Part shown: positions 1-60,194 of the stretch, one piece after another
Numbering within the stretch: position 1 is the first letter of the stretch
How the letters are laid out: each line of letters begins with the position of its first letter
From: Allomuricauda sp.
GTDB lineage: Bacteria; Bacteroidota; Bacteroidia; Flavobacteriales; Flavobacteriaceae
Reading direction: 5' to 3'
Length of the DNA stretch: 64,000 nucleotides
Assembly (NCBI RefSeq): GCF_002699205.1
Contig: NZ_PABT01000020.1
Span: 1 to 64,000 of the forward strand
The notes under the pieces: generated by a model
What the model was told of the DNA's origin: nothing
Database searches by the model: none
Seen by the model: the letters and a program-made list of their open reading frames with translations, nothing else
Translations under genes and position numbers: made by a program

Positions 1-369
1 ATTTTTCCATTTCGTGGACGGGGAACAATTCTGGTGCTCCAATATAAAATCACATGGATCCAATGGGTCGGTCCCATCTTCCTTTTCCTTTCCGTTGCTT
101 ACGCCGTCGCCGTCACAATCCTCATTTTTCCATTTCGTGGACGGGGAACAATTCTGGTGCTCCAATATAAAATCACATGGATCCAATGGGTCGGTCCCAT
201 CTTCCTTTTCCTTTGCATTACTAACTCCATCGCCGTCACAATCCGCTTTTTTCCATGCCTTGGATGGGGAACAATTCTGGTGCTCCAATATAAAATCACA
301 CGGGTCATCGGGATCCGTTCCATCAATATTTTCTTGTTCGCAAGTAACCCCATCCCCATCACAATCTTC
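1..369. repeat. Three tandem 123-bp units encoding 41-aa TSP3 repeats
   Basis: Units begin at about 1, 124 and 247, each exactly 123 bp, so the reading frame is kept. Units 1 and 2 are identical over roughly the first 90 bases and then diverge at scattered positions; unit 3 is clearly more divergent and encodes the N-terminal-most repeat. The array probably continues to the left of the window. Confidence 0.9.
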
Positions 370-597
370 ATTTCCATGAACTGTTGCCAATGGATTCCAT
401 AAAGCAGTTATTTCAAAATCAAAAATATGTGAATGGTTGGATTGCCCTTCTTTACCTTCCAAATTGTAAGAAGATGAAGATTCATATAAATCGGCAACAC
501 CAAAGGATGAAGTAAGCCCAGACATCAAAATCAGCACAACAAAGGTGGATTTTTGGACTAGTAGATTCTTTAGTCTCACAAAAGTAATTTTGTCCAT
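1..597 (-). CDS. Secreted thrombospondin type 3 repeat protein (5' part; continues beyond the left edge)
   Basis: The reverse strand reads open from an ATG at 597 to base 1, so 199 codons are visible and the C-terminus is outside the window. The N-terminus looks like a signal sequence: basic MDKITFVRLKN, then a hydrophobic stretch (FVVLILMSGL). After about 75 residues come Asp/Cys-rich units such as DCDGDGVSNGKEKEDGTDP, the calcium-binding thrombospondin type 3 pattern. The repeating unit is 41 residues, each with an additional CDFILEHQNCSPS segment holding two Cys. In flavobacteria such proteins are usually outer-membrane or T9SS-exported surface proteins, but the sorting domain that would prove this is not visible. 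The ORF track does not list it because the gene is cut by the window edge; the plus-strand ORFs here are shadows. Confidence 0.85.
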   Translation of the reverse strand, partial: MDKITFVRLKNLLVQKSTFVVLILMSGLTSSFGVADLYESSSSYNLEGKEGQSNHSHIFDFEITALWNPLATVHGNEDCDGDGVTCEQENIDGTDPDDPCDFILEHQNCSPSKAWKKADCDGDGVSNAKEKEDGTDPLDPCDFILEHQNCSPSTKWKNEDCDGDGVSNGKEKEDGTDPLDPCDFILEHQNCSPSTKWKN

Positions 598-994
598 AAA
601 TGATAAGTTTTGGTCAACTATCACCATGGCAAAAAGTGGTTCTCGTAATTGTAAGAAAATTGGGGTTTTCTTGTTTGTTTTAATGTCTCTGGTCAATATG
701 ACACACATTGACACAATTACGTCACATAGTTAACGTATTTGATTCTAACCTCCTATTTTTATCGATAAAAGGTGATTTCTGCATCATTATTTGCACCATC
801 CATCCGTTTTTATAAATGGATAATATAGTGTAGCATGGCCAGTGTATTTAAAACGGGGGGAAATTACTTTTCTTTTTGATTTTGGCTGGTTTATATTCCA
901 ATTTTTTATCCAATGATATTAACAATCCCTAAACCTTCTTAAAATGGGAGGCGAAACACATATAATTCCCCTATTTTTGCCGAAAATTTTGTTG
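598..994. other. 397-bp divergent intergenic region
   Basis: This spacer separates the minus-strand TSP3 gene from plus-strand prfC, so it must hold promoters for both. I found no good TTTG/TAnnTTTG pair on either strand, no tRNA, and no ORF that looks coding; the 545-733 plus-strand ORF has no recognisable features. A run of six G occurs near 856-861. Confidence 0.5.
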
Positions 995-2584
995 ATGGAA
1001 TTTGAAAAGGAAATAGCAAGACGACGGACTTTTGGTATTATCTCCCACCCCGATGCTGGAAAAACAACCTTGACCGAAAAATTATTGTTGTTCGGTGGGG
1101 CCATACAAGAGGCGGGGGCTGTAAAAAGTAACAAGATCAAAAAATCGGCCACGAGTGACTTTATGGAAATTGAACGTCAACGTGGTATTTCAGTAGCCAC
1201 TTCGGTATTGGCCTTTATTTATAAAGACAAAAAAATCAACATACTGGACACGCCCGGGCACAAGGATTTCGCCGAGGATACTTTTCGCACATTAACGGCT
1301 GTAGATAGTGTGATTGTTGTAATCGATGTTGCCAAAGGTGTTGAGGAACAGACAGAAAAACTGGTCGAAGTCTGTAGAATGAGGAATATTCCCATGATCG
1401 TTTTCATCAACAAATTGGACCGGGAAGGAAAAGATGCCTTTGACCTCTTGGACGAAGTGGAGCAAAAGTTGGGATTGTCCGTAACCCCATTGAGTTTTCC
1501 CATAGGCATGGGGTACGATTTCAAAGGTATTTACAATATCTACGAAAAAAACATCAACCTGTTTAGTGGCAACAGCAAAAAGAATATCGAAGAGACCATT
1601 GCTTTTGACGACCTGGACAACCCTGAGCTTGAAAAGATCATTGGTACCGATGCCGCCGAAGAACTCCGTGGAAATTTAGAACTTGTTGCGGGTGTTTACC
1701 CTGATTTTGATAAAGAAGCTTACTTGAAAGGGGAGCTACAACCCGTATTTTTTGGTTCCGCATTGAACAATTTTGGTGTTCGTGAACTACTGGATTGTTT
1801 TGTGAACATTGCTCCATCCCCAAGACCTAAAAAGGCCGAGGAGCGTTTGGTAAATGCCAATGAAAAAGATTTTTCCGGATTTGTATTTAAGATACATGCC
1901 AATATGGACCCAAAACATCGTGACCGTTTGGCATTCATCAAAATTGTATCTGGAACTTTTGAAAGAAACACACCTTACTTACATGTTAGACAAGGCAAAA
2001 AGCTAAAATTTTCAAGTCCCAATGCTTTTTTTGCCGAGAAAAAGGAAATTGTTGATATCTCCTATCCCGGAGACATTGTCGGCTTGCACGATACCGGAAA
2101 CTTTAAGATCGGGGATACATTGACCAGTGGTGAAGTATTACATTACAAGGGCATCCCCAGTTTTTCCCCTGAACATTTTAGGTACATCAATAATGCCGAC
2201 CCCATGAAGGCCAAACAATTGTACAAGGGCATCGACCAACTTATGGATGAAGGTGTGGCCCAGTTGTTCACTTTGGAAATGAACGGACGAAAAGTTATAG
2301 GTACGGTTGGGGCTTTGCAATATGAGGTGATACAGTATCGGTTAGAGCACGAATATGGTGCCAAGTGTACATACGAAAACTTTCCTGTCCACAAAGCCTG
2401 CTGGGTAGAGGCAGAGGATGAAAACAACGAAGAATTCAAGGAATTTAAGCGTGTAAAACAAAAGTTTTTGGCAACCGACAAGAGAGGGCAGTTGGTTTTT
2501 TTGGCGGACTCTCCCTTCTCTTTACAGATGACCCAGCAAAAATATCCTACGGTGAAACTGCATTATACTTCTGAGTTCGAGTGA
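995..2584 (+). CDS. prfC: Peptide chain release factor 3
   Basis: RF3 is a translational GTPase that recycles RF1/RF2 from the ribosome after peptide release. The protein shows the P-loop SHPDAGKTT (residues about 16-24), the G3 motif DTPGHKDF and the G4 motif NKLDRE, followed by the RF3-type C-terminal half. The ORF track starts at 944, but the family N-terminus begins MEFEKEIARRRTFGIISHPD, so the ATG at 995 is preferred and gives 529 residues, the usual RF3 length. It stands alone after a 397-bp spacer; the downstream membrane protein is 121 bp away. Confidence 0.96.
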   Translation: MEFEKEIARRRTFGIISHPDAGKTTLTEKLLLFGGAIQEAGAVKSNKIKKSATSDFMEIERQRGISVATSVLAFIYKDKKINILDTPGHKDFAEDTFRTLTAVDSVIVVIDVAKGVEEQTEKLVEVCRMRNIPMIVFINKLDREGKDAFDLLDEVEQKLGLSVTPLSFPIGMGYDFKGIYNIYEKNINLFSGNSKKNIEETIAFDDLDNPELEKIIGTDAAEELRGNLELVAGVYPDFDKEAYLKGELQPVFFGSALNNFGVRELLDCFVNIAPSPRPKKAEERLVNANEKDFSGFVFKIHANMDPKHRDRLAFIKIVSGTFERNTPYLHVRQGKKLKFSSPNAFFAEKKEIVDISYPGDIVGLHDTGNFKIGDTLTSGEVLHYKGIPSFSPEHFRYINNADPMKAKQLYKGIDQLMDEGVAQLFTLEMNGRKVIGTVGALQYEVIQYRLEHEYGAKCTYENFPVHKACWVEAEDENNEEFKEFKRVKQKFLATDKRGQLVFLADSPFSLQMTQQKYPTVKLHYTSEFE

Positions 2585-2705
2585 AACCAAGTGTTGGATT
2601 TGTTTTAAAACAACAATCGCACATAGTTGAAAATGAATTAATTACAAGTTTCATATATCTTTTTTTTGTACATTGGATAACATAACCAATTAAATTAAAG
2701 ATATT

Positions 2706-3137
2706 ATGACGACTCCAATAAAACCACCAACTTGGTTCTGGGTGGTAAGCGTTATTGCGCTTTTGTGGAATTTGGTCGGGGTATTTAACTATCTCAACCA
2801 AGCCTTTAACCAAGTGGCCATGTTGGAAAGCCTGAACCAAGCCCAACGCGAGGCTTTCGAGGGCATTCCGGCTTGGGCAACTGCAGCTTTCGCCATCGCC
2901 GTATTTTCCGGAACCATTGCGTGCATAGGTCTTTTGCTCCGTAAAAAATGGGCAAGACCGCTTTTTATGATCTCATTGGTTGCTGCCGTGGCACAATTTG
3001 TCCATTGGTTATTTATATCCAACGCCGTTGATGCATTTGGTTCTTCAACTTACATAATGCCCATCATCGTTATTGTCATCGGACTCTACCTGATTTCATT
3101 TTCCAAAAAAGGTATTCAAAAAAATTGGTTGAACTGA
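2706..3137 (+). CDS. Small integral membrane protein, function unknown
   Basis: The 143-residue protein has four hydrophobic stretches (about 9-30, 56-77, 85-105 and 113-132) separated by short polar loops, and a basic C-terminal tail (KKGIQKNWLN). I do not recognise a characterised family; similar short four-helix proteins occur in Bacteroidota without assigned function. A bidirectional terminator follows immediately, so it is probably the last gene of its transcript. Start choice is supported by MTTPIKPPTWFW leading straight into the first helix. Confidence 0.75.
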   Translation: MTTPIKPPTWFWVVSVIALLWNLVGVFNYLNQAFNQVAMLESLNQAQREAFEGIPAWATAAFAIAVFSGTIACIGLLLRKKWARPLFMISLVAAVAQFVHWLFISNAVDAFGSSTYIMPIIVIVIGLYLISFSKKGIQKNWLN

Positions 3138-3145
3138 CAACCAAT

Positions 3146-3176
3146 AAAAAAGCCCCGAATTATCGGGGCTTTTTTT
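3146..3176. terminator. Bidirectional intrinsic terminator
   Basis: The arms AGCCCCGA (3151-3158) and TCGGGGCT (3163-3170) pair perfectly around an ATTA loop and are flanked by A-run and T-run, so the hairpin can serve both the membrane-protein gene (plus) and the DUF3467 gene (minus), which converge here. The stop codon of the DUF3467 gene overlaps the T-run side. Confidence 0.9.
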
Positions 3177-3486
3177 ATGCTTCTCCAGTAGGTCCAAAAT
3201 TCAATGGAATTGCTGGCTGTTCATAATCTTTAATCGGTCCATGGGTCTTTTCAAACCTGCTTACATTGTCATTTAATGCTTTTAGCAGTTTTTTGGCATG
3301 CTGTGGGGTCAATATAATCCTACTCTTCACTTTTGCTTTTGGTGCCCCTGGCATCAAGCTAATAAAGTCCACCACAAATTCGGATACGGAATGGTTGATT
3401 ATCGCAAGATTGGAATAGGTTCCCTCTGCAGTTTTTTCATCCAACTCTATATTGATCTGTTTCTGTTTTTTCTTTTCTTCAGCCAT
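3175..3486 (-). CDS. DUF3467 family protein
   Basis: The 103-residue soluble protein reads like DUF3467: a basic Lys-rich N-terminus (MAEEKKKQKQINIELDE), a central segment with YSNLAIINHSVSEFVVDF and a PGAPKAKVKSRIILTPQHAKKLL core. The role is unknown; conserved Bacteroidota neighbours put it after rpoC. Here it starts 58 bp downstream of the rpoC stop with an intrinsic terminator in between, so it probably receives only read-through transcription from rpoBC plus whatever local promoter exists. Start is the only ATG giving the family N-terminus. Confidence 0.85.
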   Translation of the reverse strand: MAEEKKKQKQINIELDEKTAEGTYSNLAIINHSVSEFVVDFISLMPGAPKAKVKSRIILTPQHAKKLLKALNDNVSRFEKTHGPIKDYEQPAIPLNFGPTGEA

Positions 3487-31534: not shown

Positions 31535-32320
31535 ATGAATATACTAGACAAAATAGTCGCCGATAAACGCAAAGAGGTCGATTTAAAAAAATCACTGATT
31601 ACCCTTCCCCAATTGGAATCCTCGGTAATGATGGAACGCACCTCGGTTTCTTTGGCAGAAATGCTGCGAAAGAGCAACTCGGGGGTCATTGCAGAGCATA
31701 AACGTCGTTCTCCTTCAAAATCGGTTATTAACCAAAATCTGAGTGTACAGGATGTTGCCAAAGGTTACGCCGATGCTGGTGCCTGTGGCATATCGGTGCT
31801 TACGGATGGCAAATTTTTCGGTGGCTCCTTGGATGATCTGGTCCTAGCACGAGCAGCTACGAATATTCCCATTTTGCGAAAAGAATTCATCATAGATGAA
31901 TATCAAATCGTGGAAGCCAAAGCCTATGGCGCCGATGTAATTTTGTTGATTGCCGCCATTTTATCCAACAAAGAAATCAAAAGCCTGTCCGAATTGGCCA
32001 AAGGACTGGGATTGGATGTGCTGCTCGAAGTACACAACGAGGAGGAACTTGAAAAATCCCTAATGCCCAGTTTGGATATGTTGGGAGTGAACAACCGTAA
32101 CCTAAAAACATTTGATGTTGATTTGAACACCAGCAAATCCCTTTCCGTGAAAATACCCGATGATTTTGTGAAAGTTTCCGAGAGCGGCATAAGTTCTGTG
32201 GAAGCTATAAGAGATTTGAAAGAATACGGCTATCAAGGTTTTTTGATCGGGGAAAATTTTATGAAAACGGACAATCCGGGAGTAAGTGCTTCCGGATTCA
32301 TTAAAAAATTAGAAGCGTGA
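31535..32320 (+). CDS. trpC: Indole-3-glycerol phosphate synthase
   Basis: TrpC closes the indole ring from CdRP. The 261-residue TIM barrel has EHKRRSPSKSVIN (phosphate/lysine loop), LRKEFIIDEYQIVEAKAYGAD, LLEVHNEEEL with the catalytic Glu, GVNNRNLKTF and SESGIS. The stop overlaps the GTG start of trpF by 3 nt, so the two are translationally coupled. Confidence 0.97.
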   Translation: MNILDKIVADKRKEVDLKKSLITLPQLESSVMMERTSVSLAEMLRKSNSGVIAEHKRRSPSKSVINQNLSVQDVAKGYADAGACGISVLTDGKFFGGSLDDLVLARAATNIPILRKEFIIDEYQIVEAKAYGADVILLIAAILSNKEIKSLSELAKGLGLDVLLEVHNEEELEKSLMPSLDMLGVNNRNLKTFDVDLNTSKSLSVKIPDDFVKVSESGISSVEAIRDLKEYGYQGFLIGENFMKTDNPGVSASGFIKKLEA

Positions 32321-32979
32321 AACTAAAGGTCTGCGGCATGAACCATAATCCCACCGAGGTTGCTCAATTACAACCCGATTATTTGGGCTTTATATTCTGG
32401 GAACCGTCCTCTAGATATTTTTCTGGAGCAATGCCGGAATTACCCAACTCCATTAAAAAAGTGGGGGTTTTTGTGGATGCACCTTTGGATGAAGTATTGG
32501 CGAAAGTCGATTATTATCAATTAGATGCCGTACAACTCCATGGAAATGAAAGTGCTGAGTATTGTAAATCATTGCGTCACCCCGAACTGGTTTCGGGGTC
32601 GCACACGAGTGAGATGCTGAATCAGGTTCAGCATGACGAATTAGACATCATCAAAGTATTTTCCATCAAAGATGATTTTGATTTTGATGTTTTAAAAGAT
32701 TATGAAGAAGTCTGTGATTATTTTCTGTTCGACACCAAAGGAAAACTTCCCGGTGGCAATGGCTATACGTTTGATTGGTCCGTTTTGGAAAAATATCCCT
32801 CCGACAAACCCTACTTTTTAAGTGGAGGAATCGGTCTGGACTCAAAAGAAGAATTAAAGACGTTTATTGAAAGTCCTACATCAAAACATTGCCATGCAAT
32901 CGACGTGAACAGTAAATTTGAAATTGAACCTGGACTAAAAAATATTGAACATTTAAAAACATTGAAAGCGTTGCTCTAA
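32317..32979 (+). CDS. trpF: Phosphoribosylanthranilate isomerase with an in-frame repeat insertion
   Basis: TrpF isomerises phosphoribosylanthranilate. The GTG start at 32317 gives (M)[20 protein letters not shown], the family N-terminus with the catalytic Cys; later come VQLHGNES and the C-terminal phosphate loop region SGGIGLD. At 220 residues it is longer than usual because about 22 residues ([20 protein letters not shown] and flanks) are encoded by a palindromic element between [15 protein letters not shown] and LDIIKVFS. The insertion falls in a loop and keeps the frame, so the enzyme is probably active. Confidence 0.93.
32575..32638. repeat. REP-like palindromic element inside trpF
   Basis: The 64-bp element has an outer stem CGTCA/TGACG and two inner hairpins: ACCCCGAA/TTCGGGGT with a 5-nt loop and ATGCTGAA/TTCAGCAT with loop TCAGG. 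It can fold into a three-way junction. The same CTGAAC...AGGATGACG-type core occurs at 60144-60169. Confidence 0.8.
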
Positions 32980-60105: not shown

Positions 60106-60194
60106 AAAAAAAAGGAAAGGGGCTGTCCTAAAAGCTTGTTTTTGTCAACCTGAACCTGTTTAGGATGACGTTATACACTACTTTTTAGACAGCC
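60106..60194 (-). terminator. Composite hairpin after valS with a REP-like core
   Basis: On the minus strand GGCTGTCTAAAAAG pairs with CTTTTAGGACAGCC (13 of 14 positions), with a run of T after it (complement of 60106-60113). The loop contains GTCATCCTAAA/TTCAGGTTGAC (60144-60169), related to the palindrome in trpF. It probably ends the valS transcript before the GH109-like gene. Confidence 0.75.

Follow-up and report, generated by a model that had tools for sequence, protein, structure and literature searches.

In flavobacteria, palindromic repeats appear to have landed again and again in one loop of phosphoribosylanthranilate isomerase (TrpF). The copy that occupies this loop in the 64,000-nucleotide stretch of DNA analysed here (the window) comes from a Muricauda/Flagellimonas-type host, and the relatives compared with it belong to Muricauda, Flagellimonas and Allomuricauda. 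The element itself is an ordinary member of the known CGTC class of REPs; the new part is the trpF hotspot, at which palindromes are interchangeable. A literature search, covering papers outside subscription, found none that describes this site.

The host trpF gene (32317..32979, forward strand) begins with GTG and encodes 220 residues, insert included, an assignment drawn from the open reading frame list, Pfam PF00697 and structural matches. It reads as one unbroken frame, with a Pfam PRAI E value of 6.5e-31. At 32575..32638 it contains the 64-bp element that had been proposed, in which an outer CGTCA/TGACG stem encloses two outward-facing, CGTC-tagged REP hairpins, each a perfect 8-bp stem with a 5-nt loop; we call this arrangement type A. 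On the forward strand its order is a CGTC tag (32575-32578), the left hairpin ACCCCGAA-CTGGT-TTCGGGGT (32579..32599), the spacer CGCACACGAGTGAG (32600..32613), the right hairpin ATGCTGAA-TCAGG-TTCAGCAT (32614..32634) and a GACG tag (32635-32638). Folding and comparison with a relative's copy identify the spacer as the remnant of a third small hairpin, which is perfect in intergenic copies. The insert had been expected to add about 22 residues in frame. The frame is intact, but the net gain over insert-free relatives is 16-18 residues (34 versus 16-18 codons between the HG.E and KVF motifs), which is less than the element length, so that the original junctions are blurred. No target-site duplication was found.

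Folding and covariation both characterize the element as a palindrome. As single-stranded DNA it reaches -18.1 kcal/mol, compared with -7.9 +/- 2.0 kcal/mol for shuffled sequences (z -5.05), and as RNA it also forms a stable fold (-27.3 kcal/mol, z -3.68). Among 17 distinct 64-nt trpF copies, 92% of stem cells are paired, and stem cells changed on both sides number 44 against 15.2 in shuffles, with all slid controls far lower. Because the stem pairs covary, residues of the encoded peptide are linked as well, namely P..G, A..A and S..E in RH[PAS]ELVS[GAE]S. This covariation marks the trpF copies as palindromes and is no proof that trpF selects for the hairpin, since arriving copies carry ready-made pairs.

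Type A is a repeat family of the whole host genome (4.47 Mb in 53 contigs). A relaxed type A pattern gave 53 matches there and its reversed control none, and the census built from pattern searches and fetched loci arrives at about 58 half-elements, most of them in opposed heterodimers, spread over about 28 places. The nearest full-length relative of the trpF element in this genome (G000:C11:8979-9054) is 76% identical, and the trpF copy is the only one of the host copies inside a long open reading frame. The sequence at 60144..60169 (GTCAACCTGAACCTGTTTAGGATGAC), to which the core of the element had been matched, does belong to the same family in the sequence search, but it is a single intergenic hairpin and not a 64-bp unit. 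Several relatives carry compact 64-bp copies outside long reading frames, with the spacing of the trpF element. A copy in one relative, outside any long reading frame (G034:C1:1012083), forms a perfect three-hairpin cloverleaf with this spacing, so that the trpF copy can be regarded as a slightly worn member of that type. The host also has type A pairs arrayed in tandem at G000:C10:5487-6063 and G000:C52:207086-207490, where they repeat about every 165 and 189 bp, respectively.

The original prediction anticipated a clean gap of about 22 residues in related TrpF proteins. This was not borne out: most of them carry either this palindrome or an unrelated one at the same codons. The site lies between a helix ending in YC..L and the strand IIKVFS and holds differing palindromes across TrpF from 71 genomes of the genus, with palindrome sequence in 58 of the 71 genes and short or unclassified loops in the others. 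When insert types are assigned by mismatch-limited patterns, type A accounts for 22 of the 71 genes and type B, a TGTC-tagged palindrome unrelated to A (CTGTCATTTCGAGCGCAGTCGAGAA ... TCTCGACTGCGCTCGACCTGACA), for 21; the left half of B stands alone in 12, and a left-A/right-B hybrid (L040), an A-then-B tandem (L101) and a decayed A (L085) were seen once each. This comparison uses one genome per species, some of them draft or metagenome-assembled. Type B, too, is a genome-wide repeat, present in 69 of 73 genomes. The observation that had been held to speak against an insertion, namely unrelated DNA in this segment of related TrpFs, was thus made only in half, as such DNA is often there but is that of another palindromic repeat family.

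In a genus-wide peptide search of one reading frame, trpF accounted for almost every full-length type A copy that lies in frame within a long gene; the exceptions pointed to leuS. The trpF inserts of three species (L047, L069 and L071) also contain an extra small palindrome, of the CCTGCCGGCAGG or CCGGACAGGCAGG type, nested in frame within A or B. Beyond the genus, Flavivirga, Aestuariibaculum, Kordia, Mariniflexile, Yeosuana, Algibacter and others carry palindromes at the same spot in trpF, comprising A, B and two more (RHFEERNDEVIAS; CHSALDAES), and many trpF genes outside the genus have loops of 16-20 codons there.

The distribution of these inserts points to a complex history. Type A lies forward in the trpF of L031-L035 and L041 and reversed in that of L036, L037, L039, L042, L045, L046, L049, L079 and L083, the margins being small for L039, L079 and L083. 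On a 122-species tree of trpC, insert-free trpF and trpB, the insert label changes at least 46 times, as counted by a quick tree method in which decay states are labels of their own. The tree, the two orientations and the unrelated families contradict a single vertical insertion. Close pairs of species hold unrelated elements, as in L037 and L063 (A versus B, with 95% protein identity outside the insert), L034 and L077, L043 and L087, and L036 and L044. The boundaries in such unlike pairs are sharp, with flanks at about 0.91 DNA identity right up to the insert on both sides, and same-type pairs are alike in this respect. This undiminished identity led us to reject a long foreign tract brought in together with the insert, but leaves room for very short tracts.

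Similarity of the inserts is weakly linked to that of their flanks (Mantel r 0.39 for A and 0.37 for B), and the nearest neighbour by insert mostly differs from the nearest neighbour by flank. The host and L032 have 1 mismatch in 81 positions of the insert against 15.3% in the flank (P 2e-5), and in L068 and L088, too, the inserts resemble each other much more closely than the flanks do. Left flank codons and the spacer are common to B alleles of distant lineages, which means that some of the pattern reflects the exchange of old alleles rather than new insertion; L040 resembles a recombinant of A and B, its right flank being like that of the B allele of L076. These sequence comparisons seem to call for two processes: first, repeated founding events, given the two orientations and several families, and then the propagation of existing alleles across very short tracts.

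The location of the insert in the protein may offer a reason for its tolerance. AlphaFold gives a confident PRAI barrel for the host TrpF (mean pLDDT 89), whose best structural matches are PRAI enzymes, and residues 94-105, between helix 80-87 and strand 110-117, score below 50. The insert is therefore predicted to sit in a disordered loop that links helix 3 of the barrel to strand 4; the Thermotoga PRAI lacks residues at this position. Loops that lead into the strands of a TIM barrel face away from the active site, and the place of the insert should accordingly be permissive. Two columns, C6 and D139, do not vary among 49 relatives. Amino-acid identity within type A inserts averages 0.57, compared with 0.74 for the rest of the protein.

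CGTC REPs have been reported in Bacteroidetes, some of them inside open reading frames and with no dedicated transposase (Di Nocera et al. 2013, PMC3733652). That study also described different REPs at about the same recB site in two Xanthomonas species and equated CGTC elements of R. conorii with RPE-4 and RPE-6 (PMC3733652). The palindromes found here share with this class the CGTC/TGTC tag, the 8-bp stem and 5-nt loop, the opposed heterodimers, the scattered distribution, the lack of a linked transposase and the occurrence of some copies within reading frames. Members of the class have an unpaired CGTC, TGTC or CCTC at one end, as do both ends of the trpF element, and stems of 8-9 bp that start with A-T pairs and close a 4-5 nt loop. 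Both trpF hairpins start with A-T, followed by C-G in the left and T-A in the right one. The family likewise exists as multi-copy opposed dimers, all but the trpF copy outside long reading frames, and has no association with a tyrosine transposase. The tails, at CGC/CTC, depart from the short, unpaired and mostly CCA tail of the class, in which CCA is usual and not required. In contrast to what is described for these REPs, the trpF codons hold unrelated families, in both orientations, across the genus and other genera of the family.

The proposed parallel with Rickettsia, a REP-like palindrome lying in frame in a biosynthetic enzyme, is upheld by a family that is genome-wide and a loop that is predicted to be disordered. 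Rickettsia palindromic elements (RPE) are in-frame palindromes that add a peptide within conserved metabolic genes, and the trpF reading frame similarly continues intact through the element; in sequence, the two would be linked only through the CGTC class of PMC3733652. A difference from RPEs is that the host genome yielded a single in-frame copy of type A. REPINs with RAYT (PMC3116915) also consist of two opposed REP units as one unit in many copies, but such systems combine a GTAG tag with a genomic RAYT gene, whereas the trpF element is tagged CGTC. The host genome has no match to Y1_Tnp, which is present in 14 of 73 relatives, and none of ten Y1_Tnp loci inspected in relatives has A or B elements; RAYT was rejected as mobiliser on these two grounds, and the search brought up no other mobilising enzyme for type A. 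The RAYT-like Y1_Tnp genes of relatives (L126-L130) are flanked by other short palindromes, of the GCGGGAGCGGGGG type.

Taken together, the loop is probably a tolerated part of TrpF that REP-type elements have invaded repeatedly, with turnover by re-insertion, short-tract recombination and decay and with the frame kept by selection. The CGTC-tagged REP pair would be a mobile element, short, palindromic and non-autonomous, whose point of entry into trpF is permissive. This point would be the loop that joins helix alpha-3 to strand beta-4, on the side of the barrel facing away from the active site. Frame-keeping insertions would be tolerated there, which may have made the loop a recurrent landing site. 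As the genus and family evolved, it would have held unrelated REP-type palindromes as well as type A in either orientation. These may have been swapped by short-tract recombination or re-insertion, recombined with one another and worn down by in-frame deletion, while selection on TrpF kept the reading frame. We infer that the insert is neutral. How much is owed to fresh insertion and how much to allele exchange is likewise a reading of the patterns above, which come from one genome per species and in which no insertion was caught in the act.

A different history, with some if limited likelihood, would have few and ancient insertions, leaving long-lived A and B alleles that now undergo only very-short-tract interspecies recombination, or old polymorphism with decay, and no ongoing insertion. 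The flank codons and spacer common to distant B alleles, the inserts more alike than their flanks (host and L032; L068 and L088) and the recombinant-like L040 all agree with it, but it has to accommodate type A in both orientations, the further families and nested palindromes at the site, and a foreign tract that must be very short, given that identity beside the insert is not lowered in unlike pairs. It is very improbable that the hairpins persist because they act as a signal in RNA or DNA, for instance a pause, stability or polarity element within the trp operon. The stable RNA fold and the retained compensatory pairs would suit such a role, but incoming copies are already paired, and half elements, remnants and insert-free trpF genes are common. 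A functional role for the insert as a protein module is barely credible: although most species of the genus retain an insert, its peptide is wholly different between sister species, is less conserved in type A than the rest of the protein and falls in a loop predicted to be disordered.

Recurrent invasion of a tolerated loop would give more than 50 natural variants of a single enzyme that differ in a loop written by mobile palindromes. With such a series, two questions can be put to the test: by what means CGTC REPs move when no transposase is known for them, and in what way selfish repeats turn into tolerated protein sequence. The same-site swaps between sister species point to recent activity and identify species for comparison.

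Leucyl-tRNA synthetase genes (leuS) of the genus present a second hotspot, with A or B at two sites in the editing-domain region in many species (L252-L299) and reading frames of about 936 to 1200 aa. Site 1 follows NWIGRS.GAS.TFNV and site 2 precedes LELNTMPG, and both hold A and B sequences in other species. The host leuS (L282, G000:C16:35400-38900, open reading frame 195-3422) has an in-frame insert of about 140 residues at site 1. This insert is a DUF559 (Vsr/REase-like) domain, residues 319-422, flanked on either side by hairpin sequences, and it occupies the codon at which REP palindromes are found in relatives. DUF559 also lies in frame in RecG (L327, L331) and B12-dependent methionine synthase MetH (L306, L318) of relatives, again with inverted hairpin ends (GCCCCCCCACCCCCAAAGGGGGAGC ... 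GCTCCCCCTTTGGGGGCAGGGGGGC in MetH). The free-standing DUF559 genes inspected (L320, L324, L326, L329 and L330) lie between copies of two-hairpin palindromes, e.g. CTCCTTTCCC..GGGAAAGGTGTCCCGAAGGGAC, and resemble REPtrons except that they are without RAYT. A literature search outside subscription papers found none that links DUF559 to palindromes.

On the basis of the shared leuS location and the hairpin ends, one may ask whether a site-directed nuclease, and not chance with tolerance, drives the repeated occupation of fixed trpF and leuS codons. The DUF559 cassettes would then be an autonomous form of such palindromes, with homing-like cutting and repair placing and swapping REPs. We consider this unlikely; if true, it would supply the mobiliser that is absent from RAYT-less REPs. 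In one relative, a DUF559 gene (G008:C23:43019-43339) lies in the trp operon region, about 75 bp downstream of trpF.
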